IMG/VR virus record: IMGVR_UViG_3300043466_001366
Coordinates: 1 to 39,075 of that record
DNA: 39,075 nt
Origin: a virus
Strand: one strand, 5' to 3'
Part shown: piece after piece, positions 3,552 through 36,076 of the stretch
Layout: each line of letters begins with the position of its first letter
Numbering within the stretch: the stretch's first letter is position 1
Made by a program: the position numbers and the translations under genes
Notes under the pieces: model-generated
What the model saw: the letters and a program-made list of their open reading frames with translations, nothing else
The model's database searches: none
Told to the model about the DNA's origin: nothing

Positions 3552-3743
3552 TCAATAGTCCTCTGGTTCAATGGGCTCGTCGCACTCGTAGCGCGAGTCC
3601 GTCAGCACATCGCTGCGGTAGCGCGACAGCTTTTCTTTGCGGCACTTGGAGCAGACGTAGCATAGGAAAATCCCACGCGCATCAAACTCCGCATCGGCCT
3701 CGCGGCCACTACCACAAGGACACTCTTCAAGATAGGTTCGCAT
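3552..3743 (-). CDS. Small zinc-ribbon protein
   Basis: A 63-aa protein with CPCGSGREADAEFDARGIFLC followed by VCSKCRKEKLSRYR and a terminal DEPIEPEDY. Two Cys pairs (CPC and CxxC) suggest a zinc ribbon. Small proteins with this FDARGIF...C..C...KL..YR pattern are common in phages of proteobacteria and have no known role. The start overlaps the upstream stop as TAATG, which fixes the start at 3743 rather than 3791. Confidence 0.6.
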   Translation of the reverse strand: MRTYLEECPCGSGREADAEFDARGIFLCYVCSKCRKEKLSRYRSDVLTDSRYECDEPIEPEDY

Positions 3744-4591
3744 TATTGAACACCTCCTTCCTCTGCACGTTTGCACGTTTCCAAGACCCACTTGACGGGA
3801 TCGCGGAAGATGAGGCCTGCGTCACCCTTGTCATGCTTATCTTCCACATAGGGAGCAGGCAGGATGATGTCTTGCGGAGCGGCCAGACCTTCCAGCGTCT
3901 TGCGAGCTCCAGCGAGGCGAGCGGCCAGCGTGCCGTGCCGCACATAGTGCGCTCCCCATGCGCCATTGAATCCGTTGAATTGGCGAGCAGTAGCGTAGCA
4001 GATGCCACGGCTGAACCCTTGTGAGGTCAGGCAGTAGGCTACGCTGGCTATGTCGATGGGAGTCGTACACATCTGCACGCACGGCACTGTCTGTCCCGCC
4101 GTGCGGCCATGCAGCGAGGCGAACGTCCATAGCTCCACGGCACGGCCATTGCGGATCAGCTGCATGACCAGCGCGAGAGCGGCGATGCCGCGAGGCAGTA
4201 GGTCCTGCCAGCTGATCTGACAGGACGAGGCGACATCCACCCAGACGCGCAGGGGAGAGCGATCGTCTTCGGTGACGAGGCGTCTCCTCATGCATTCGGG
4301 ATCGTTGGCGAGGAAGGCAGCAACATCGGCGTAGGCTCCGCTGACGCTGTTCTGCCAGACAACGCACTCGCGATTGAACTCTGGCTCAATCTTGCTGAGT
4401 AGCTTCTCGGCCTCTGGAACGCGACTGGAATCACCAGTGCGCGTCTTGCGGATGTAGTCTTCTTTGCTCTCGCCGATCCATGAAGCGTCTCCGTTCATGT
4501 AGCTTTCCTTGGTAGCTTCGGCAATGGCGCGAGGCGACGAGAACATGATCTGACCTCTGCTGTTGAGTTTAGGCTGATGAGTGTGGTTCAT
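3743..4591 (-). CDS. vWA-like partner of the MoxR ATPase (DUF7192-like)
   Basis: A 282-aa protein starting MNHTHQPKLNSRGQIMFSSP (ATG 4591). The central SPLRVWVDVASSCQISWQDL and RGIAALALVMQLIRNGRAVE LW stretch resembles a von Willebrand A-like fold, with a MIDAS-like D-x-x-S-S. The gene follows the MoxR/CbbQ-type ATPase by 14 bases. MoxR ATPases typically work with a vWA protein as a chaperone pair that inserts metals or remodels enzymes. Phages carry such pairs with unknown substrate. The family name is from memory, the pairing is visible. Confidence 0.65.
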   Translation of the reverse strand: MNHTHQPKLNSRGQIMFSSPRAIAEATKESYMNGDASWIGESKEDYIRKTRTGDSSRVPEAEKLLSKIEPEFNRECVVWQNSVSGAYADVAAFLANDPECMRRRLVTEDDRSPLRVWVDVASSCQISWQDLLPRGIAALALVMQLIRNGRAVELWTFASLHGRTAGQTVPCVQMCTTPIDIASVAYCLTSQGFSRGICYATARQFNGFNGAWGAHYVRHGTLAARLAGARKTLEGLAAPQDIILPAPYVEDKHDKGDAGLIFRDPVKWVLETCKRAEEGGVQ

Positions 4592-4605
4592 GTTGGTTCT
4601 CCGTA

Positions 4606-5868
4606 TTAGCCTTTGATCTGAGCCCACGATTCCTCCGCCATGCCCATGCGGATGCAAGATTCCTCGGCCTCCTGCCACGTTTCGCCAGCCTGCAACACCA
4701 TGCATCCGTAGATGGATGCGCGAGGACTGATGACGCAGCGGACTCCAGCGATCTTTGCTTTCGCACGGCACTGCTGAACATATGTGATCCACTTGCTGCC
4801 GAGGTTCTGGTCTTCAATCTTCGTCAGCGCGAGGTGACGCTCCAGCGTCTCGTCTGTGTCCCATGCCAGCATGACGAAACGATTGCGGAAGGCCTCGTCC
4901 AACTTGGCACGGCCAACGTAGTCGTGAGTCGCACCGAATCCCCATGTGTTCGCTGCTGCGATGCAGCGGAAGTCGGGATGCTTCTTGAAGCAACCATCGG
5001 GGAAGTCGCACCATCCGTTAGACAGAGCGGCATTGAACGCGAGCAGGGCTGAAGGCAGCGAGGCATCAACCTCGTCGAACATATAGACTCCGCCTTCGGT
5101 GAATGCTTTGCGGAACGGACGGCTCACGATGCGACCCTGTGCATCGGTGAAGCCGAGCAACTTGTGTTCGCTGTCGATCGCGCCATTGAAGTAGAACGGC
5201 ACTTCGCGTTCCCAGTGAGCGGCCAGAGCCTGCGCGGAGAACTCGCCTGCCGTGGTCTTGCCAGTGCCAGCGGGACCCGCCAGATACACGTTGCAGCCTG
5301 CGAGGAGCTTCGTGACGAGGCTCTTGAAGTTGCGATGCTGAATGCCCATGTCCACAGTCTTCGTGGATGGCGTGACCACCTCGACCCGAACGGGAGCGAG
5401 GCCGACTTCGCGCTTCACGATGGCGCGGATGATTGGCTCAAGACGCTTTTCATCAAACGTGTCGCCCATGATTTCGCGCAGCACATCGCGCAGAGCGTCA
5501 GTGCCTTTGGCCGCAGGTGCGGGAGCCTGCTCACTTTTGCTGTCTTCGCTGATGGTCTTGGCCTCCTCGCGGATGGCCTCCTGCTTCTGCTCCTTCTGCT
5601 CGCTGCTGCTGCCGTGCTGCTTGTTCTGCGACTGAGCGATGATGCCGTTGACCTTCTCCATCGCCTCGCGCACGGCGGCGATGCGAGTCAGACGGCGATA
5701 GACGCGTGCAGGGTTGTCGCTGAATCCGACCATCTTCGCTGCCTGCTCCAGCGTGCTCTTGCTGATGCAGATGAGGCGGACGTATTGGCGCTGTTTCTCG
5801 GTGAGGCCTGTGAGAGCTTCGTCGATGAGGGTTGCTTGGCTGTTGGTGTTGGTGTTGTTGGTATTCAT
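4606..5868 (-). CDS. MoxR/CbbQ-type AAA+ ATPase with N-terminal HTH
   Basis: A 420-aa protein. The N-terminus (about residues 22-60) has LTEKQRQYVRLICISKSTLE followed by AAKMVGFSDNP, a small HTH-like segment resembling terminase small subunit DNA-binding helices. A Gln/Glu/Ser-rich linker follows. The ATPase domain shows Walker A GPAGTGKTT, Walker B VYMFDEVDA, a sensor-like CIAAANTWGFG and an arginine-rich DEAFRNRF. It probably remodels a protein target together with the vWA-like protein encoded next. A CCAA-repeat leader precedes GGAGAAAG and the ATG. Fusion of a DNA-binding-like helix bundle to a MoxR ATPase suggests it may act at DNA. Confidence 0.8.
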   Translation of the reverse strand: MNTNNTNTNSQATLIDEALTGLTEKQRQYVRLICISKSTLEQAAKMVGFSDNPARVYRRLTRIAAVREAMEKVNGIIAQSQNKQHGSSSEQKEQKQEAIREEAKTISEDSKSEQAPAPAAKGTDALRDVLREIMGDTFDEKRLEPIIRAIVKREVGLAPVRVEVVTPSTKTVDMGIQHRNFKSLVTKLLAGCNVYLAGPAGTGKTTAGEFSAQALAAHWEREVPFYFNGAIDSEHKLLGFTDAQGRIVSRPFRKAFTEGGVYMFDEVDASLPSALLAFNAALSNGWCDFPDGCFKKHPDFRCIAAANTWGFGATHDYVGRAKLDEAFRNRFVMLAWDTDETLERHLALTKIEDQNLGSKWITYVQQCRAKAKIAGVRCVISPRASIYGCMVLQAGETWQEAEESCIRMGMAEESWAQIKG

Positions 5869-6218: not shown

Positions 6219-6251
6219 AAAAAAAAGTCAGTCCCGCAAAGGGCTGACTTT
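6219..6251 (-). terminator. Intrinsic terminator after terL
   Basis: In transcript sense AAAGTCAGCCC-TTTGC-GGGACTGACTTT forms a stem with one bulged base and runs straight into a T8-rich tract. It lies 31 bases past the terL stop and should end the terS-to-terL transcript. Confidence 0.8.
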
Positions 6252-6281
6252 GAGTGACTTGCGACTCAGATTTTGTGGGTT

Positions 6282-8066
6282 TTACTCTGTCGGGCGGTCG
6301 CCCTTGGGCGACAACACCTTGGCAAGCAACCCTGCCACTACCTGCATCTTTTCGCAGTCCCGAAGGTGATTTGCGCGGCCCTTCTGAACTACCCACTTGG
6401 CCGTAGTTGTGCCAGTGACAGGATTGCGTAGCTTACGCTTGACTGTGCTTGCCATATGTTCGTGCCAGTCAATCGGGAAGTCCTTGGGGAATTCCCATGT
6501 CGCGGGATCGCTGCGGCGTAGCGCGTCAAGAATGTCTTCGCACGTAGGCGCGGAGAACTTGATCAGAGGACACGTTCGGCGCGTCAGCGATCCAGAATCC
6601 CAGCGTCCTCCGCCAGCGGGATCTCCGCGCTCTGGCCGTGCGTAAGCGCGTTGCACCTTACGTCCGTTGTCTGACCATGTGAAACTCTCTTGATCGCTTC
6701 CGCGCAGAGCGACATAGCCGAATCGGCAGCAGGCAAAATAGACTTCGCGTGTCGCAAACGCGCTGTCCACGAATACGCACGGCGGTCTGATTTCATTTTC
6801 CTCGCGCACCTTTTCCAAGTCATCCCACGTTTCTATCCTGCCTGCCCATCTGCCGCGACTACGTCCGTCCTTTGACCAGTCGCGGATCACCGCCCAGAAG
6901 TGCCTGCCTCCCTGATCTTGAACGTCTACAGTCATTGCGCTGAACGTGGCTTCTGCCCATCGGTCGCCAGATAGATAGTCGCTCGCGGTAGATTTGATTT
7001 CTTCCTGCTTCTCGGAATCATCAATCCAAGGTTCTGCCAGTGCGCCATTCACGAAGTCCTGCAGACCGAGCAGCGATGCCTTCTGACGTAGGAATAGCAC
7101 GGCCAATTCACCGAATCCGCATGAACGCCACGGCGCATACAACGAATTCAGATGGTAGCTGCGTCTGCCTTTGCCAGCATTCGGATTCAGAGGCCTCCAC
7201 TCGCCAGCGCGAAGCATCCGAGTCTTGTGACCATCAGTGATCTTGTCCTTACAGTTTTCGCATTCGTAGTATGCCGTGGCGCGAATGGCATCTTCGTTCC
7301 ATGTGCCATCTTCGCTGCGAGCGGTATCTGACCATTTCACCTGCGACCAAAGCAATCTCTGCATGGTTCCGCAGTGCGGACATGGCAGGAAGTAGTAACG
7401 CTGATCGCCCTGCTGAAATGCCTGCCAGATTTCGCCTTCTGATGTTGTCGGCGTAGATGCCTTGATACGAAGCGCGTTCGTATAGGACTTGGTTCTGTTT
7501 TCTGCCAGAGCCACGGCTCCCGCTTCGCGTTCTGTCGGAGTAGCAAATTTATCAGTTTCATCCATGATAAGGATGCCTGCTGGACGCGATGCCAAGTTGG
7601 CGGGACTGTTACTGCCAATGAATACCAACGTGCAGTCACGGAATTGCTGCTCCAGCGTTTTGTAGCGATGCACGTTGCTCGGCTTCAGTGCGCGTAGCTT
7701 GTCGCAGTCATCAACCATCGGTTGCCATCGGTTCTCGCTGAAGCTTCGCGCCAAGTGTTCAGACGGCATTACCCAGATCAGAGGTGCAGGGTTGTTGACC
7801 ATACGCCACGCTGCACCAATCATCATCGCAGTGGTCTTGCTCGTCTGACTTCCGAAGCATAGGCATACGTCTGTTACGCTCGGATCTGCGAAGCAGTTCA
7901 ACGGCTCTCTGATGTATGGCGTCAGAAGCGTAGAGTAGGGACCAGGCGTTTCTGTCTGGCGACGAGTCAGAACGATCTCGTCTTCCGCCCACTGCCAGAC
8001 TTCACGATTGTCGATTGGAGCAAAGACATCGCGCAGGCTGCGATCAAGTTGCGCGATCAGAGTCAT
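6282..8066 (-). CDS. Terminase large subunit, GpA type
   Basis: A 594-aa protein from ATG 8066, which overlaps the TAGT stop as ATGA (the longer frame to 8156 is not needed). Motifs fit the lambda GpA family: Walker A-like GSQTSKTT at residues 72-79, adenine-binding WVMPSE near 98-103, Walker B ILIMDETDKF at 165-174, a CPHCG...CENC zinc ribbon in the middle, and nuclease-domain acidic patches (TVDVQDQGG, FVDSAF). It is the packaging motor that cuts concatemeric DNA and pumps it into the prohead through the portal. GpA-type enzymes usually cut at cos or at comparable specific sites. Unusually, three modification genes separate it from terS. Confidence 0.95.
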   Translation of the reverse strand: MTLIAQLDRSLRDVFAPIDNREVWQWAEDEIVLTRRQTETPGPYSTLLTPYIREPLNCFADPSVTDVCLCFGSQTSKTTAMMIGAAWRMVNNPAPLIWVMPSEHLARSFSENRWQPMVDDCDKLRALKPSNVHRYKTLEQQFRDCTLVFIGSNSPANLASRPAGILIMDETDKFATPTEREAGAVALAENRTKSYTNALRIKASTPTTSEGEIWQAFQQGDQRYYFLPCPHCGTMQRLLWSQVKWSDTARSEDGTWNEDAIRATAYYECENCKDKITDGHKTRMLRAGEWRPLNPNAGKGRRSYHLNSLYAPWRSCGFGELAVLFLRQKASLLGLQDFVNGALAEPWIDDSEKQEEIKSTASDYLSGDRWAEATFSAMTVDVQDQGGRHFWAVIRDWSKDGRSRGRWAGRIETWDDLEKVREENEIRPPCVFVDSAFATREVYFACCRFGYVALRGSDQESFTWSDNGRKVQRAYARPERGDPAGGGRWDSGSLTRRTCPLIKFSAPTCEDILDALRRSDPATWEFPKDFPIDWHEHMASTVKRKLRNPVTGTTTAKWVVQKGRANHLRDCEKMQVVAGLLAKVLSPKGDRPTE

Positions 8067-8833
8067 CTGTGCGCGTTCATCAGACGCTTGATCTGCGTGT
8101 AGTTCAACATTATCTGGCCTGCACGGCGAGGATGCGGAGTGATTAGGTCTCCCCACTTCATGAACATCTTCTTCGTGGCTACCAATTCTGCTTCTGAAGT
8201 GCGATATGTATTTGCTCCGCCTTCATTGTCACGATGCGGGAAGTCGCACATAATGTTGTCGCAACGAAAGACTCCGCCGTGCGTCAGGATCGCTTGCAGC
8301 GTCATGTCGTAATCTTCCTTCAGTGCTACATTCTCGTCAAAGAACGAGCATGATTGACCGACATAGATCAGATCGCACGCCACGAATTTATTTATAGCGA
8401 TCGGCTGGCCGTTGTAGTTCGCTGCGTTTGTCGTGAGTGCCGTGCCACCATAAACGCGCTTCGTCAGTGCGCTCGCATTCAACAGCGTCAGAATAGCTTC
8501 TTCAAGAGTGATGCGATATCGTTGCCACTTGTTATTCTCCCATCGCACAGACTTCACGTTACGCAGATCGTCGCTCGCTTGAATGCTGCAAGCGTCATGG
8601 ATTCTGGCATCGCGCAAAGCGGCATTTCTGGCCGCGCTGATGTTGTGCCTGCATCCTCTGACGCGATCAGATGAAAGGCCAGCAGCTATATAGTCGGCTT
8701 CTTCGCCTTCAGAGACATACCATGTGGATGCCGTGTGACCGAGCAGTTCAAGCATCGGAGCGACACGTTGCGGACGCTTCGTGCTGATGATCGCCATGTG
8801 AAAGCGACCTTCTGGTAGTCCTTCATTTAACAT
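8063..8833 (-). CDS. TET-associated glycosyltransferase (TAGT)-like
   Basis: A 256-aa protein. It shows STKRPQRVAPMLELLG, a WYVSEGEEADYIAAG segment, a GCRHNISAARNAALRDA helix and IQASDDL (D88-D89), which resemble the TAGT/GREB1-type glycosyltransferase fold with a DD metal/nucleotide-sugar site. TAGT enzymes are encoded next to phage TET/JBP dioxygenases and are thought to add sugars to 5-hydroxymethylcytosine in DNA. The gene overlaps the TET-like gene by 11 bases and terL by 4, so all are co-translated. ATG 8797, with AGAAGG upstream, is an alternative start. The sugar and the exact target base cannot be read from sequence. Confidence 0.75.
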   Translation of the reverse strand: MLNEGLPEGRFHMAIISTKRPQRVAPMLELLGHTASTWYVSEGEEADYIAAGLSSDRVRGCRHNISAARNAALRDARIHDACSIQASDDLRNVKSVRWENNKWQRYRITLEEAILTLLNASALTKRVYGGTALTTNAANYNGQPIAINKFVACDLIYVGQSCSFFDENVALKEDYDMTLQAILTHGGVFRCDNIMCDFPHRDNEGGANTYRTSEAELVATKKMFMKWGDLITPHPRRAGQIMLNYTQIKRLMNAHR

Positions 8834-9656
8834 TACGTCCGCTCAATCGGCGTTGCTCCACTTGTTCACGGCGCATTCTCGCACGCGCAATCTCTTGTCG
8901 TAGCGGCTGGCAGTTCCACATATTCTGCAGGCTGTAATACACCAGAGAGAATCGTCTGGAATCCGAAGCGAGCTTCGTGATCGGAGTTACCCCGTGCAGA
9001 ATCGCCTGTCCGTCGAAGTAGAAGATGCTGTGATTTACAACCTCTACCAAGACATCGTATTCTGGCATGGCGAGATACCCGCCTGCAATCTTGTGCTTCA
9101 GCACAATCATTGCGCTCCAAACGTGCTTGAAGTTACCGCTGTCGAAATGGTAGCAGAGCGGATTGTTGTCGTTGATGATTCCAGAAGTGAACGGAACATC
9201 TGGGTAGCGAAAGTCATCTACGATCTTTTCTTGCGCTGTTTCAAGATGACTGTCGTAGAGTTTCTGATTATGCAGCGCGTAGTATTTCGCGGCCAGCCTT
9301 CCTCCGTTAAGAATACGCTGATGAATAGCGGGATCTTCGGTAGCCAATGACGCAACCGAGCAGAAGTCCTTGCGAATAGCGTTGCGCGGATTGAAGCCGA
9401 ATATGCGGCTGGTTGTTTTCAGACCATTCGTGCGATAGTCAGCGCAGTATTTGACGTCTGTGCAGGCGTCGAAGATGTCGTTGAATTCTTGTGTCTCACC
9501 GCACGGCTTACAATACAACGCAACGATCTCGCCGCTGTCTTCGTCAATCAACTTGAACTCATCCTTCAGCAACGTGGAGCAGTCTGACTCGTCGGCGCGA
9601 CGATGAACGTATTGCTCCAGATCAACGGACTTACGCTTAATGGTTAGCGTTTGCAT
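8823..9656 (-). CDS. TET/JBP-family 2-oxoglutarate/Fe(II) dioxygenase
   Basis: A 277-aa protein with a double-stranded beta-helix signature: H170-x-D172 in CYHFDSGNFKHVWSAMIVL, GGYLAMPEYDVLVEV, distal H221 in ILHGVTP and Arg in SRRFSLVYYS for 2-oxoglutarate. The D-S-G-N-F, GG-L-P-Y and H-G-V-T-P layout is that of the Tet_JBP family rather than AlkB or prolyl hydroxylases. Family members oxidise 5-methylcytosine (or thymine) in DNA. The N-terminal part has Cys residues (CKPC, CTDVKYC) that may bind zinc. It is followed by TAGT, so oxidised bases are likely glycosylated. It overlaps the ParB-like gene by 20 bases. No cytosine methyltransferase was found in the genome. Confidence 0.82.
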   Translation of the reverse strand: MQTLTIKRKSVDLEQYVHRRADESDCSTLLKDEFKLIDEDSGEIVALYCKPCGETQEFNDIFDACTDVKYCADYRTNGLKTTSRIFGFNPRNAIRKDFCSVASLATEDPAIHQRILNGGRLAAKYYALHNQKLYDSHLETAQEKIVDDFRYPDVPFTSGIINDNNPLCYHFDSGNFKHVWSAMIVLKHKIAGGYLAMPEYDVLVEVVNHSIFYFDGQAILHGVTPITKLASDSRRFSLVYYSLQNMWNCQPLRQEIARARMRREQVEQRRLSGRNVK

Positions 9657-10299
9657 AGGCGTTAATCGCGGCGATGGCGGCTTCTGTATTGGTTTCCAAT
9701 CCCTTCTCTTTCTTGATGGCGTCCAGAGCGTTCATCGTATCTGCAAATTCTTGAACGTCCATGATCAGAACGATCTGACGCACTGTGCTGTTCTCGTAGC
9801 TCATCAGACGCTCAGTAGGCCGCAGTCCGCGCTCTCCGCCTTCAAGCACATCGCCAACGCTGTCGGCAGACAGATTGATTCCGAGCTTGTCTAACGCTTG
9901 ACTATCAAAGCCAAGCGATTCAATTCCCACGCCATCCGCCGTCAGCGTCTGAAGCTCCTTGGCGAGCAGATCACTGTCCCATTCGGCCAGCGTAGCCAGC
10001 CGATTGATGCTGATACGCAGAGCCTTGATATCGGCTTCACTCAGATCGTCGCAGACAATAGCGGGAACATTGTCGCCGTCCAGTCCTACGATCCCTTTTC
10101 GGCCGGCATCGCCAAGATGCTGCAATGCCTTTATCCTCAGATGTCCGTCAATCAGAGTGCCGTCCGACTTGGCAAGGACAGGAACTCGGAATCCGAATCG
10201 CTTGATGGCATCGGCTACTTGCTGCACGGCATGATCGTTCTTCCGTGGATTGCCAGCATAGGGAACGAGCTTACGAAGGGGTAGTGTTTCGGTTTTCAT
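9637..10299 (-). CDS. ParB/Srx-domain protein
   Basis: A 220-aa protein from ATG 10299 (MKTETLPLRKLVPYAGNPRK). It has the ParB-type N-terminal fold: LVPYAGNPRKND, then LIDGHLRIKALQHLG (G-H-x-R motif) and VPAIVCDDLSEADIKALRIS. In phages this domain commonly precedes DNA methyltransferases, either fused or as a neighbour, and some members have nuclease or CTP-binding activity. Here it stands alone and is followed by the TET-like gene. It could guide or license modification at certain sites or act in packaging. It overlaps terS by 29 bases. The in-frame ATG 10338 is upstream, but the internal start gives the standard N-terminus. Confidence 0.8.
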   Translation of the reverse strand: MKTETLPLRKLVPYAGNPRKNDHAVQQVADAIKRFGFRVPVLAKSDGTLIDGHLRIKALQHLGDAGRKGIVGLDGDNVPAIVCDDLSEADIKALRISINRLATLAEWDSDLLAKELQTLTADGVGIESLGFDSQALDKLGINLSADSVGDVLEGGERGLRPTERLMSYENSTVRQIVLIMDVQEFADTMNALDAIKKEKGLETNTEAAIAAINAYANANH

Positions 10300-10936
10300 A
10301 TATGGCTTTGAATAACGTCTTGTCCCGCCACTCTTCAAGAAGTTTCTGCGCGAGCATGGGATCCTGCGGATTGACTTTCGCCGCGAGAGCGGCAGGCATT
10401 GACGAAGTAATCGTTCTGACGTCTTGCAAAACTGTTCTGAAGGCTCGCTCTGCGTCCTCTACTTGCATGGTGCGGCGGTCTCGCTCCATCAGATCGCGCA
10501 GCTGACGCTCATAGACTACCTGCTTCGCCAGATACTGCTGATGCGTCTGAGCCCATCGGCGCGAGGCTTCTATTTCGCCAGAGTGATGAAGGCGAGCTAC
10601 TTGCGCGGCTGCGTGCTTACGTAATTGACGCTGCTCGTTCAGAGCCTCGCGGCAGCTATCCGTTTCGGTGTGCTGCTTGATTGGTTCTTCAATGGCTTCT
10701 TCGGCGCGGCGATTCATGGCGTCAATGATCTCGTCTGGTTGCACTGGAGCGGTGATCGCGCTCGCTACGGCTTCCGCCGCGATGACTTTCGCGGGACTGA
10801 AGGAGCGGCTACGTCCGTTCGTGCGATACCAAGACAGAGCGGCTTCCACGCTGTCAGAAGGCATTCCTCGCTTGATGCACTTGTGCGCTCCCGCTGGCGT
10901 CAGATTCAAGGCTGCGGCCAATTTACGGACAGTCAT
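10271..10936 (-). CDS. Terminase small subunit, Nu1-like
   Basis: A 221-aa protein whose N-terminus, MTVRKLAAALNLTPAGAHKC, is a winged-helix-like DNA-binding motif of the Nu1 type, followed by a long helical region with QLRKHAAAQVARLHHSGEIE and a C-terminal part that would contact TerL. It recognises the packaging site and delivers DNA to TerL. GGCAGGTGG lies just upstream of ATG 10936. The repeat-filled gene-free stretch directly upstream resembles in position the cosB site bound by lambda Nu1. The operon continues with ParB-like, TET, TAGT and terL. Confidence 0.75.
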   Translation of the reverse strand: MTVRKLAAALNLTPAGAHKCIKRGMPSDSVEAALSWYRTNGRSRSFSPAKVIAAEAVASAITAPVQPDEIIDAMNRRAEEAIEEPIKQHTETDSCREALNEQRQLRKHAAAQVARLHHSGEIEASRRWAQTHQQYLAKQVVYERQLRDLMERDRRTMQVEDAERAFRTVLQDVRTITSSMPAALAAKVNPQDPMLAQKLLEEWRDKTLFKAIYENRNTTPS

Positions 10937-11140: not shown

Positions 11141-11390
11141 GTGATCAGAGTTGATCAGACTTGATGCGAGTTGATCAGAGTTGATCAGAGTTGATCAGAG
11201 TTGATCAGAGTTGAACCAGTTGATGCGAGTTGATCAGAGTTGATGCGTTCATCTGATCATCATCGGTCTGTTCCTTGGCCGCTCCTCTGTAGTGTTGATG
11301 CGTGATGATACGTGTTGATACGTGCTGACACACCTTTGGCCGAGTTGATCAGAGTTGATCAGGGTTAATGCGAGTTGATTCCTGTGAAGT
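11141..11390. repeat. Phased 10-bp TTGATCAGAG repeat array upstream of terS
   Basis: Plus-strand units of TTGATCAGAG or TTGATGCGAG follow each other at 10-base steps from 11141 to about 11249 (one unit is 9 bases), with looser copies at 11294-11328 and a second block of four at 11345-11384. Each full unit contains the palindrome TGATCA. A 10-bp period places all units on one face of the helix, as in iterons or multi-site protein arrays. The array lies between the early genes and terS. It may be the TerS packaging site, a ParB-type binding site or a replication origin. Confidence 0.85.
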
Positions 11391-17848: not shown

Positions 17849-18267
17849 AAACCTACTTCATCAGACGCGAATTGCATCCCGTAGCAGTGTTAGCGTTGGA
17901 TGAAATCTGCTTTCCGACAGACTATCGCGTGAATGTTGATGGTGCGATGTGGTGGATCGTCTGGCACGGCAAAGAAGCTGTCGGCTATGCTGGCCTTCGT
18001 CCTTGCCAACTTCCATGCAATGCTGGAGTCGGATTCCTTAATCGCGTGGGAATCGTTGCCAAGCATCGCGGGAATGGTCTGCAGAAGCGTTTGATTCGCG
18101 TGCGCGAAGCGGCAGCACGCGCAATGAAGATGAGCGAGCTTGTGACGTATTGCATGGGATGGAATTGTGCCAGCGTCAATTCGCTGGTCGCGTGCGGCTA
18201 CAAGTTCTATGGGCCAGCAACGAAATACGGCGGATCACAAGCGGTCTATCTTCGTAAGAAGCTATAG
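17845..18267 (+). CDS. GNAT-family N-acetyltransferase
   Basis: A 140-aa protein. YAGLRPCQL, then VGFLNRVGIVAKHRGNGLQK followed by RLIRVREAAARAMKMSELVT match GNAT motif A, with R-G-N-G-L binding acetyl-CoA, and ASVNSLVACGYKFYGPA matches the C-terminal N-x-x-S...G-Y/F motif. It transfers an acetyl group to an amine of an unknown small molecule or protein. It might acetylate a host factor, a toxin target or a modified base. The stop overlaps the 3' end of the opposing tRNA gene. Confidence 0.8.
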   Translation: MKTYFIRRELHPVAVLALDEICFPTDYRVNVDGAMWWIVWHGKEAVGYAGLRPCQLPCNAGVGFLNRVGIVAKHRGNGLQKRLIRVREAAARAMKMSELVTYCMGWNCASVNSLVACGYKFYGPATKYGGSQAVYLRKKL

Positions 18268-18336
18268 CGGGAGGAGGAATTGAACCTCCGCATGGATGCT
18301 TATGAGACATCTGACTTACCACTTGTCGATCCCGCC
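18265..18336 (-). tRNA. tRNA-Met (anticodon CAT)
   Basis: A 72-base cloverleaf. Acceptor GGCGGGA pairs with TCCCGCT (G1-U72 wobble), D-stem GAC/GTC with GTGGTAA loop, anticodon stem GATGT/GCATC (one G-U) with loop CTCATAA, T-arm GGAGG-TTCAATT-CCTCC and discriminator A. CCA is not encoded. There is no C1-A72 mismatch and no GGG/CCC anticodon stem, so it is not an initiator. It is an elongator tRNA-Met or, if the C is lysidinylated, tRNA-Ile2 reading AUA. It sits at the convergent end of the plus trio and the amidase. Confidence 0.9.
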
Positions 18337-32799: not shown

Positions 32800-33332
32800 A
32801 TGCATATCCAGCAGCGACCATGCACCATGTATGCATGACATTGTTCCACCGCTACACGCACGGCAGGACTATCAATATCGTGTCCCGCGAGAACGCCACC
32901 CTTGATTACCTTTGGCTTCCAAGCAGCGACATCCCGCAAGACGCCTTCGGTTGTATGGTCTGCGTCAATGAATACTCCCCACACCGATGCGTCTTCAAAC
33001 TCTTTGGCTGCGGAAACGCTGTCACCCTCTATCACATCCACCATCTGAAGAACACCTGCCTGCGCGAGCGTAGCGTCAAACAGATTGCGGAAGCTGCCTC
33101 CTGCCTGCTCTGCAATATTCTTCTGCAAATCCTCGGTCGCACTTCCCTTGAAAGTGTCTATCGCCACGATACGAACCTTCTTGCCGAGCTTCTTCACCTC
33201 ACTGGCGAAGTAGCTGACTGAATGACCTATCCACGCACCGACCTCTACGAAGGTAGCACCTTCTGGGATTTGCTCTGCAAGTTGCTTGTAGAGGTCAGGA
33301 TAGTCGAACCAGTTCGGGATGTCTTCGTTCAT
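32796..33332 (-). CDS. Class I SAM-dependent methyltransferase
   Basis: A 178-aa protein with motif I ATFVEVGAWIGHSVSYFA, motif II IVAIDTF, and GVFIDADHTTEGVLRDVAAW KPKVIKGGVLAGHD, the Methyltransf_24 layout used for sugar and small-molecule O-methylation. It lies between two glycosyltransferase genes, so it likely methylates the same glycan. The start overlaps the end of the upstream GT-TPR-GT gene by 38 bases. It is not a DNA cytosine methyltransferase: no PCQ or ENV motif. Confidence 0.8.
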   Translation of the reverse strand: MNEDIPNWFDYPDLYKQLAEQIPEGATFVEVGAWIGHSVSYFASEVKKLGKKVRIVAIDTFKGSATEDLQKNIAEQAGGSFRNLFDATLAQAGVLQMVDVIEGDSVSAAKEFEDASVWGVFIDADHTTEGVLRDVAAWKPKVIKGGVLAGHDIDSPAVRVAVEQCHAYMVHGRCWICI

Positions 33333-35013
33333 AGATTTGTTTTGCGCGTTCGTATTCGGCGAGATCGTTCCCGCGCTCGTAGGTCGCGTCCATCGGAACT
33401 GCCTTATTAAAGAAAGGATGGTGATGCTTTATTACGATGTTATGTGCGTTGATGATGGCATTGTGCTTCGTCGCCGTGGCGGTCAGATCGGTGTCTGAAT
33501 ACACGTTGCGATATTCCACGTGGAACAATCCATGCTTCTCATACCAGCGGCGAGTGATGATTGCCATTGTCAGCAGGCCATCGGTGCGGCATCCGTCTGA
33601 GACTCGTAGCACCTTCTCGTCAAACAGATGTCCCGATAAAGGATACTTGTCCGCTTCAAGTGCCTGCAAAATCATGGTGTCCCAATTCGGCGGCGGCTCA
33701 AAGTCATCGGCAATCTGAATCAGCACATCGCCAGTAGCGACCGATGCTGCCTTGTTCCACGCTCCCACGGAATATGTCGATGCCTTCGACAATACGCAGC
33801 GGAAGCGTCGAAGTTTCTCAATACTTTCGACATCATCTTCGTCGATGGCGAACCAGTGTTCTACGGCTTCTGGCTTCGCGGCTCGCGCCATCCACATATT
33901 CATGGCTCCTATGGCCTGCGACCATCTGCCTCGCGTTGCGTGTAGCAGGCTGATGCGCGGTTTGCCTGCCTCTGCCAGCATCTTGTCTTCAATCTCCTTG
34001 GCCTTCTGCTCCTGACCAGCCAGACGATGCGCCCATGCCAAGGCTGCATGAGCCTTCCAGCCGTAGCAGTCAGGCCGATGCGTCCATTCGGGGATCTTGG
34101 GATGCGGTATCGCCAGAGCCTGCTCGCAAGTGACGATGGCCTCCTCTGCCTGCTCGGCGTCCATTTGGAGCAGGGAAAGCACGCTATAGGCTTCGCGTCT
34201 GTTCGGGGACACTCGTATGGCTCGGCGGCACAAGTCTTGTCCTGCGGCATTCTCGGCAGCAAGAAGGGCAAGATTGAGCATCACCTCGTAGCGATAAACG
34301 CCATCCAGCGATTTCATCCTCAGAGCTTCAATTCCGTAATGCGCTGCCTGCTCTCGGTCATTCAGCAGGAAGTATTCGTAGTGCAGATAGAAGGCCAAGT
34401 GTTGCGCCTCTTGATAGCGCCAGCGGAGGATATTGATGTTCCGTTCCTGTGAGCTGCTTTTCTGGCCGATGGGATCGTGAATGATCCTGACGTCTCGGCG
34501 CACGCGCACCTTCAGAGATTCCTTGGACGAGTCCTTGCTAACTGGCACGCACTTTTCGTGGACTCCATAGAACCATGCTGCCGTGCCATTGCGGAAAATC
34601 CGCTCGCGCCAGACTGATTTTCCGTGAAGAGGCAGCACATATTCCGCGAGTATCCAGTCTTCCTTCGTTTCATCGCACGCTTTGCGGATGACTTCACCCA
34701 TGCCTTCTTCAAGCACATCGTCACAATCCATCCACATCAACCAGTCTGCACCTTGATCCATGCCGATGCGGAAGGCCATATTCCGCGCAGCAGCGAAGTC
34801 ATCCACGAACATCCAGTTGGCCGTGGCAGGACTGTTGTAATATTCGGAAACGATGCATCCGCGCCTCTTGGCTACGTCCAGAGTTTCGTCTGGAGTCTGT
34901 CCTCCGATGGCTCGCACAACAACGACACAGTCGCTGACGCTGAAAGCGGAATCCAGAGCGCGTTCTATGTGGGCGGATTCATTACCCACGATCATGCAGA
35001 CTGCAATCTTCAT
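33295..35013 (-). CDS. Glycosyltransferase-TPR-glycosyltransferase fusion
   Basis: A 572-aa protein in three parts. Residues 1 to about 200 are a GT2 domain (MKIAVCMIVGNESAHIERAL and WLMWMDCDD with its DxD). About 200-340 is a helical TPR-like region (AAHYGIEALRMKSLDGVYRY, AIRVSPNRREAYSVLSLLQM). The remainder is a second GT-A-like domain (RISLLHATRGRWSQAIGAMN, WFAIDEDD, GDVLIQIADDFEPP). Bacterial proteins with GT2 plus TPR modify surface glycans. It follows the major capsid gene and its terminator and has its own promoter-like TTGACA. A double-headed enzyme could build a disaccharide. Confidence 0.8.
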   Translation of the reverse strand: MKIAVCMIVGNESAHIERALDSAFSVSDCVVVVRAIGGQTPDETLDVAKRRGCIVSEYYNSPATANWMFVDDFAAARNMAFRIGMDQGADWLMWMDCDDVLEEGMGEVIRKACDETKEDWILAEYVLPLHGKSVWRERIFRNGTAAWFYGVHEKCVPVSKDSSKESLKVRVRRDVRIIHDPIGQKSSSQERNINILRWRYQEAQHLAFYLHYEYFLLNDREQAAHYGIEALRMKSLDGVYRYEVMLNLALLAAENAAGQDLCRRAIRVSPNRREAYSVLSLLQMDAEQAEEAIVTCEQALAIPHPKIPEWTHRPDCYGWKAHAALAWAHRLAGQEQKAKEIEDKMLAEAGKPRISLLHATRGRWSQAIGAMNMWMARAAKPEAVEHWFAIDEDDVESIEKLRRFRCVLSKASTYSVGAWNKAASVATGDVLIQIADDFEPPPNWDTMILQALEADKYPLSGHLFDEKVLRVSDGCRTDGLLTMAIITRRWYEKHGLFHVEYRNVYSDTDLTATATKHNAIINAHNIVIKHHHPFFNKAVPMDATYERGNDLAEYERAKQIYERRHPELVRLS

Positions 35014-35113: not shown

Positions 35114-36076
35114 TTAAGCGTAGGAGGTATCAATACCCAGCGCACAGCTGACGTCAATAAGTTTCTCAGCCGTATTGTGGCGGCAGCGAATGACGTTAGA
35201 GCGGCGAGCCTCGTCGCGATAGGTCTCGGAGACGAGCGCGGTCGGAGAATCTTCAGACCAGAGCAGGGTGCGGCCAAGTCCACCAGCGGTGAACTCACCA
35301 GCGCCGAGCTTGGCGACGATGACCTTGTTGTTCGTCCAGATGAACGAGCCACTGTAGGTCTGACCTTTGGCCGCGCCATTCTTGGCAGCACGACCGATCA
35401 GAAGACGATTCACGTTCAGCGCGGAGGCAACTTCCTCGGCGGAGGCAGGGCGAGCCTGCGACACGTTCTTCACGGGACCGAAGATGTTATTGAGCAACTT
35501 GGTCGAGCGGCGAATGCGATTGAACACCTGCAAGGACATGATGACCGTATCGGCAATCACGTTCTTTTTGGCGAGTTCAGTCTGAGCATCGTCAACGTCC
35601 TTGGCGATATCCAGCGTATCGACCGAGCCAGCCGTGTAAGCGGCGGTCGCGGAGATCGCGGAAATGCTGGAGCCGTAGAGCAAGGTAGCAACGCGCTGTT
35701 CATGCGAGAGCATCAGCTGATTGTTGAGGAAGGTCGCGGAAGCAACTTCAACGTCGAAGTAACGACCCAGATCCGCCGAGGTTTCATCGGGAAGCAACTC
35801 TTCCAACTCAAACGAGGTGCAAGTGTAGTTGTCCGTATTGAAGCGACGAGTGACGCGAGCGCGGTCGGTGCCAGGAGCAGTGCGAGCCGCATCAGGATTG
35901 AAGACTTCGGCAGGGCCGCAGTCAATCTTCACGTATTCGCCAGAGCGAGCGGGAACCGTCAGAATCGGGAGGACTTCAGTTCCGATGAACGGAAGCTGAC
36001 CCAGATTGTTTTGCGCTTCAAAGACCGCTTGCGAGATCTCTGCGCGAGGAAGTGCGTTTGAGTTTACGTATGCCAT
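35114..36076 (-). CDS. Major capsid protein
   Basis: A 320-aa protein, MAYVNSNALPRAEISQAVFE and on. The layout (extended N-arm, VPARSGEYVKIDCGPAEVFN, IRRSTKLLNNIFGPVKNVSQ, GSFIWTNNKVIVAKLGAGEF, LLWSEDSPTALVSETYRDEA) is that of HK97-fold capsid proteins similar to lambda gpE. It follows the protease/scaffold and decoration genes and ends at a strong terminator. It has no evident Shine-Dalgarno sequence. Forms the icosahedral shell. Confidence 0.88.
   Translation of the reverse strand: MAYVNSNALPRAEISQAVFEAQNNLGQLPFIGTEVLPILTVPARSGEYVKIDCGPAEVFNPDAARTAPGTDRARVTRRFNTDNYTCTSFELEELLPDETSADLGRYFDVEVASATFLNNQLMLSHEQRVATLLYGSSISAISATAAYTAGSVDTLDIAKDVDDAQTELAKKNVIADTVIMSLQVFNRIRRSTKLLNNIFGPVKNVSQARPASAEEVASALNVNRLLIGRAAKNGAAKGQTYSGSFIWTNNKVIVAKLGAGEFTAGGLGRTLLWSEDSPTALVSETYRDEARRSNVIRCRHNTAEKLIDVSCALGIDTSYA

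Follow-up and report, generated by a model that had tools for sequence, protein, structure and literature searches.

Which base is modified by a phage that carries a TET/JBP-type dioxygenase and a TAGT-like glycosyltransferase between its two terminase genes, and does this location reflect a coupling of DNA modification to packaging? Both questions are raised by the viral record IMGVR_UViG_3300043466_001366, of which the whole stretch of 39,075 bases (the window) was analysed. A direct terminal repeat of 127 bases is present at its ends, and the window is therefore probably a complete genome. On its minus strand, genes for a terS-like protein, a ParB-like protein, a TET dioxygenase, a TAGT-like glycosyltransferase and terL follow one another, with successive overlaps of 29, 20, 11 and 4 bases. 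We consider it reasonably probable, from gene content and key residues, that the three middle genes form a compact DNA-hypermodification cassette, which would convert thymine into 5-hydroxymethyluracil (5hmU) and then into a sugar-bearing 5hmU, assisted by the ParB-like protein, for the protection of phage DNA, and with a last gene that can be exchanged.

A compact cassette between the terminase genes

The genes and the terminator of this run are as follows.

10271..10936, minus strand: putative terS-like gene, 221 residues, helix-turn-helix (HTH)-like at its N-terminus, first in the run (PHROG terS E 0.16 only; named by position)
9637..10299, minus strand: ParB-like protein, 220 residues, with a ParB-N domain that includes a DGHLR box and a C-terminal domain common to TET-adjacent ParBs (PHROG E 1.2e-38)
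8823..9656, minus strand: TET/JBP 2-oxoglutarate (2OG)-Fe(II) dioxygenase, 277 residues (Pfam PF12851 E 6.9e-9)
8063..8833, minus strand: divergent TAGT-like glycosyltransferase, 256 residues, in the exchangeable decorator slot (Pfam TAGT E 1e-3, under cut-off)
6282..8066, minus strand: terminase large subunit terL, GpA type (Pfam GpA_ATPase E 1.1e-62)
about 6220..6252, minus strand: intrinsic terminator closing the run, a bulged hairpin followed by T8 (folding energy -23.7 kcal/mol, z -5.7)

The first-pass annotation had placed the ParB-like, TET and TAGT-like genes, as overlapping genes, between the two terminase subunits, and their coordinates, order and overlaps were all correct, with the ATG of terL at 8066 giving the 4-base overlap with the TAGT-like gene. 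It had also described an operon ending at the terL terminator, and the bulged hairpin with T8 is indeed found just after terL; a simple hairpin scan missed it because of the bulge in its stem. A sigma-70 promoter scan gave fewer sites than shuffled sequences did. Its position and N-terminal HTH-like sequence point to terS as the identity of the first gene, whose family occurs at the equivalent place in the related loci L002, L005 and L018. Judged from the Pfam and PHROG E-values, and from TET relatives with the same surroundings in many independent contigs, the cassette is not a product of chance.

A TET/JBP dioxygenase and a divergent TAGT relative

Tet_JBP was the sole Pfam match of the TET protein, with 35.6 bits for a cut-off of 34.9 (36.8 bits in the genome scan), and no transglycosylase family was matched. 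Single-sequence PDB searches with this protein, and with the TET from Methylophilales phage Melnitz-1, gave no match; a PDB search with a profile of 15 TET sequences retrieved TET2 (6e-5), followed by CMD1, NgTet1 and CcTet only. All of these are of TET/JBP type and none is an AlkB or P4H enzyme, the alternative that had been raised for this fold. The iron ligands H170, D172 and H221, together with the 2OG-binding R235, are invariant in the 15 sequences and were aligned with TET2, and the base-reading positions correspond to N175 and L243. The query protein P0002 alone had no match in GTDB genomes; a profile search led to three loci.

The TAGT-like protein matches the PHROG family beta-glucosyl-HMC-alpha-glucosyltransferase (HMC, hydroxymethylcytosine) with E 9e-4. 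Used alone (P0001), it had no relative in IMG/VR and no match in a single-sequence PDB search; the only one found, by way of a TET search and a two-row profile, is in L026, where a gene 72% identical lies beside a TET 68% identical. Alignment with hhalign to a profile of better-scoring TAGTs, namely, those of L028 and phages P12024L, Acadian, Indlovu and Klevey, gave E 1.4e-6 over residues 12-240 and placed D88-D89 on the DDD motif; both residues are invariant in 11 TAGT-type sequences. An AlphaFold2 (AF2) model of the protein, with a predicted local distance difference test (pLDDT) of 70 and a predicted template modelling (TM) score (pTM) of 0.70, matched BFVD models of TAGTs in Foldseek with E 2e-14 and TM 0.74. 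As judged by profile comparison, by D88-D89 and by its predicted fold, the window protein is a divergent TAGT relative and not a curated Pfam member, in spite of its score below the Pfam cut-off. The motif numbering given in the first-pass annotation (H170-x-D172 and H221 for TET, D88-D89 for TAGT) was exact, the residues being invariant in their respective alignments, and its families and DNA-hypermodification reading stand: TET by Pfam and profile, and the TAGT relationship by profile, DD motif and fold.

A TAGT gene also occurs in Streptococcus phage Javan291 (L048:2946-4738), in a set made of ParB, TAGT (3.6e-17), a small HTH gene and terL. The complete Javan291 genome gave no Tet_JBP match.

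The gene after TET is exchangeable

The gene that follows TET is TAGT in the window, L026 and L028; an FkbM methyltransferase in L002, L003, L004, L018, L024 and L030; and, in L005, L021, L023 and L027, a 322-residue enzyme with no Pfam match that resembles, by eye, a GT-B glycosyltransferase. Another decorator set, a glutamine amidotransferase plus a GNAT acetyltransferase, occupies this place in L034 (1453-2479). On the TET tree the decorator changed at least 17 times, including five changes among twelve close relatives. Through ParB and TET, the DNA of L024 and that of L028 is 89.5% identical; their slot genes are unrelated, and they match once more inside terS, at 83%. L002 and L018 align with the window up to where TET ends, and again from where terL begins. 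Among closely related phages, the position behind TET is a tailoring slot whose gene can be exchanged, an observation that is new here. TET-TAGT pairs themselves recur in Acadian, Indlovu, Klevey, L026, L028, L044 and L054, as well as in an Ignavibacteria metagenome-assembled genome (TAGT E 1.2e-17) and in large IMG/VR contigs.

These comparisons bear on the terS-ParB-TET-TAGT-terL order, which the first-pass annotation had suggested surveying for conservation in related phages. ParB before TET is constant in close relatives with enough sequence, but the gene after TET varies and the cassette sometimes precedes both terminase genes. The order had been correctly described but is not unusual, with ParB-TET-TAGT found beside the terminase in cultured Mycobacterium phages. 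Keeping the oxidising enzyme while swapping the decorating one would be a simple escape from modification-dependent restriction enzymes, and the slot is a source of candidate DNA-tailoring enzymes, such as the FkbM methyltransferases and the GT-B-like enzymes.

Thymine is favoured over 5-methylcytosine

The first-pass annotation assumed 5-methylcytosine (5mC) as the substrate of TET. No C5-methyltransferase (PF00145) was found in the window genome, and the search works, since it detected the enzyme in Melnitz-1, directly upstream of TET, the one positive among 33 other records with a TET, of which 16 are whole phage genomes. The Melnitz-1 methylase is of HhaI type, and the TET beside it has a different active site, with D at HxDxxD and D eight residues past the 2OG-binding arginine (R+8). 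Ploopntkinase3, annotated as a 5-hmU DNA kinase in Gordonia phage Wooper, is present in nine of the ten cultured actinophages carrying the window's TET type, and stands alongside an amino-acid:DNA transferase in Gordonia and Rhodococcus phages. For Rhodococcus phage Tonitrus, the ParB-TET-transferase-kinase set has been described in the literature as a system for thymidine hypermodification (PMC11955845). The window genome has neither Ploopntkinase3 nor a thymidylate synthase/hydroxymethylase, and thymidylate-synthase-type hydroxymethylation was rejected on the latter ground.

In TETs that act on 5mC, a His at R+8, as in TET2 and NgTet1, reads cytosine N3 (PMC7854593), and an Asn or Asp after HxD reads cytosine N4 (PMC7854593, PMC11040006). 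In the window's TET clade, R+8 is Leu in 29 of 30 sequences, including Leu243 of the window, and Ile in Klevey. Because there is no C5-methyltransferase, 5-hmU-type kinases occur in relatives, and Leu occupies R+8, thymine is favoured over 5mC as the TET substrate on the basis of genes and residues. The original assumption of 5mC thus gives way, in view also of the ParB-TET relatives, which have no C5-methyltransferase but do have 5-hmU kinases and amino-acid:DNA transferases, and of the loss of the cytosine-N3 contact; the likely target moves from methylcytosine to thymine.

In Mycobacterium phages Nigel (L007:1786-2379) and Acadian (L039:3022-3585), genes annotated as 'terminase small subunit' encode kinases of the Ploopntkinase3 family (Pfam 2.9e-72 and 3.2e-61, respectively), and the TETs beside them go under the name 'queuine tRNA-ribosyltransferase'; the two annotations are probably database errors. 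In Siphonobacter-type prophages (L035/L036/L045, 5505-6023), a P-loop kinase-like gene with no Ploopntkinase3 match lies between ParB and TET, possibly representing a different family of DNA-base kinases. For lack of that match, the kinase-like genes of L035 and L045 were left out of the 5-hmU kinase counts.

The ParB partner and the terminase neighbourhood

Wherever the sequence of a close IMG/VR relative extends far enough, TET is preceded by a ParB gene. Ordinary DNA methylases of phages come with ParB-N domains as well, which suggests that the ParB-like protein is a general DNA-loading partner of DNA-modifying enzymes, a role that it may also play here.

Among relatives, the cassette is either flanked by the terS-like gene and terL, as in the window, or placed ahead of both, and in Klevey and P12024L TET and TAGT are away from terL. 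Terminase adjacency suggests co-expression at most. The earlier proposal that modification is coupled to packaging drew on gene proximity only, and the Klevey genes do not adjoin the terminase. Gene order gives no support for this coupling, because post-replicative modification precedes packaging in any case, and we rejected it as an explanation of the order.

Just upstream of the terS-like gene, at 11142-11379, there is an array of 10-bp repeats with the consensus TGATCAGAGT, which holds 10 of the 20 TGATCA sites of the genome and may be bound by TerS, ParB or a regulator. At the equivalent place in L005 we found a different, 24-bp repeat, and not the 10-bp repeat of the window.

Proposed mechanism and alternatives

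Protein families, catalytic residues, gene order, the missing C5-methyltransferase and slot exchange are observed; from them we infer the thymine substrate, the sugar, the role of ParB and the protection. After replication, the TET/JBP enzyme would act on phage DNA and hydroxylate thymine at its methyl group to give 5hmU, using Fe(II), O2 and 2OG. The TAGT-like enzyme would then transfer a sugar from a nucleotide-sugar to the hydroxyl of 5hmU, and the resulting glycosyl-5hmU would be akin to kinetoplastid base J. Such a bulky base may shield phage DNA from host nucleases, while the ParB-like protein, the constant neighbour of TET, probably brings the enzymes onto DNA or guides them there, and the exchangeable gene after TET would determine the final group. 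One may speculate further about a two-enzyme phage base J, made without kinase or deacetylase, placed by ParB at chosen sites and altered in its final group by a one-gene swap, although in this full form we regard the idea as rather improbable.

Several results weigh against thymine glycosylation as proposed here. The AF2 model of TET with six close relatives was poor (pLDDT 40.5) and was left unused. N175 does not discriminate between substrates, since human TET2, a 5mC enzyme, also has Asn at this position. The window lacks the 5-hmU kinase found in most cultured relatives, so the argument for thymine is drawn mainly from these relatives, and a host methyltransferase could be a source of 5mC. 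As for the TAGT-like protein, it scores 19.5 bits against Pfam TAGT (PF20691), for a cut-off of 27.5, and its model had no significant fold match among PDB structures.

Were TET to oxidise 5mC made by a host enzyme, and TAGT to glycosylate the resulting 5-hydroxymethylcytosine (5hmC), the cassette would resemble established phage systems in which TET, C5-methyltransferase and glycosyltransferase act on cytosine (Burke 2021, as cited in PMC12730594). The match of N175 to TET2 N1387, which contacts 5mC N4, and the phage TET that adjoins an HhaI-type methylase in Melnitz-1 also speak for this route. We nevertheless find it unlikely, as the window and all records of the ParB-TET clade lack a C5-methyltransferase, Leu stands at R+8 in place of His, thymine-pathway genes are present in relatives, and dependence on host methylation would make the modification strain-dependent. 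A second possibility retains 5hmU and TAGT and gives them a different purpose, site-specific marking, for instance of a packaging or regulatory site through ParB, in place of general protection. The constant adjacency of ParB and TET, the proximity of the cassette to the terminase in most relatives, and the 10-bp array upstream of terS fit with it, but the 10-bp repeat is not seen in L005, ParB-N domains also occur with ordinary phage DNA methylases, and the Klevey cassette is not beside the terminase, all of which make this very unlikely.

Hardly credible, in turn, is that TET is no DNA modifier at all, but a tRNA-modification enzyme ('queuine tRNA-ribosyltransferase', 'DpdA-like') or an AlkB/P4H-type oxygenase. 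The former name is carried by phrog_6059 and many RefSeq records, yet Tet_JBP is the only Pfam match, to the exclusion of transglycosylase families, and the PDB profile matches are all of TET/JBP type. We discarded the name 'queuine tRNA-ribosyltransferase' for TET, as it looks like a propagated database error. Hydroxylation of thymine followed by glycosylation is the reading that we prefer.

Other features of the genome

A 572-residue double glycosyltransferase (33295-35013, minus strand; phrog_13126, phrog_14945; Pfam Glycos_transf_2) adjoins the major head protein (35114-36076), and may serve in capsid glycosylation or as a second DNA glycosyltransferase. Downstream of the terL terminator, at 3743-5868 on the minus strand, an AAA ATPase (AAA_5; phrog_249 'porphyrin biosynthesis', CobS-like) is followed by a DUF7192 protein. 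One tRNA-Met gene (CAT; 18265-18336, minus strand) adjoins the endolysin gene.

Comparison with known systems

Phage systems with TETs acting on 5mC (Burke 2021; Melnitz-1) share with the window the TET/JBP family and the Tet_JBP match; unlike the window, Melnitz-1 has a C5-methyltransferase adjoining TET, and Asp at HxDxxD and R+8. With the T6-type TAGT, a beta-glucosyl-HMC-alpha-glucosyltransferase, the window protein shares the Pfam/PHROG family matched and a TAGT-type predicted fold, but it is very divergent, and the substrate of the T6-type enzyme in T-even phages is 5hmC that already bears glucose (PMC13216743). Tonitrus and Wooper have a ParB-TET core upstream of the terminase, as in the window and with TETs from its clade, and thymine is taken as the substrate (PMC11955845); decoration differs, proceeding through a 5-hmU kinase and an amino-acid:DNA transferase with no sugar transferase.

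In the kinetoplastid base J pathway (JBP1/2 and J-glucosyltransferase), a TET/JBP-type thymine hydroxylase is followed by a glycosyltransferase to give glucosyl-5hmU, and the predicted gene content of the window fits this pathway. Base J is, however, eukaryotic, and JBP1 has a J-DNA-binding domain for which the window protein has no Pfam match. As of 2019, glucosylated 5-hydroxymethyldeoxyuridine had not been reported in phage genomes (PMC6449724), and in the later literature, of which our coverage is incomplete, we found no report of a sugar-5hmU base in phage DNA.

Among cultured phages, Mycobacterium phage Acadian carries gp1 ParB, gp2 TET, gp3 TAGT, gp4 PIG-L deacetylase, gp5 Ploopntkinase3 and gp6 terL, and Indlovu likewise. 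Acadian and the window have in common the ParB-TET-TAGT order beside terL and no C5-methyltransferase, whereas the window has no deacetylase and no kinase, its TAGT is only ~20% identical, and its cassette lies between the terS-like gene and terL. N-acetylglucosamine-5hmU was suggested for Acadian in a 2014 paper that cites Iyer 2013 (PMC4111573). The set of Arthrobacter phage Klevey, made of ParB, oxidoreductase/TET, glycosyltransferase and glucosaminyl deacetylase, resembles the window in having TET and a TAGT-like enzyme without kinase or C5-methyltransferase, and differs in its deacetylase and in not adjoining the terminase. Acadian (M. smegmatis mc2 155) and Klevey (A. globiformis) are direct test cases for the previously suggested base-J-like phage base. 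A ParB-TET-TAGT set adjoining the terminase was therefore known before, by prediction, from cultured phages; the window adds a minimal form with a divergent TAGT, and its relatives add the exchange of the slot.

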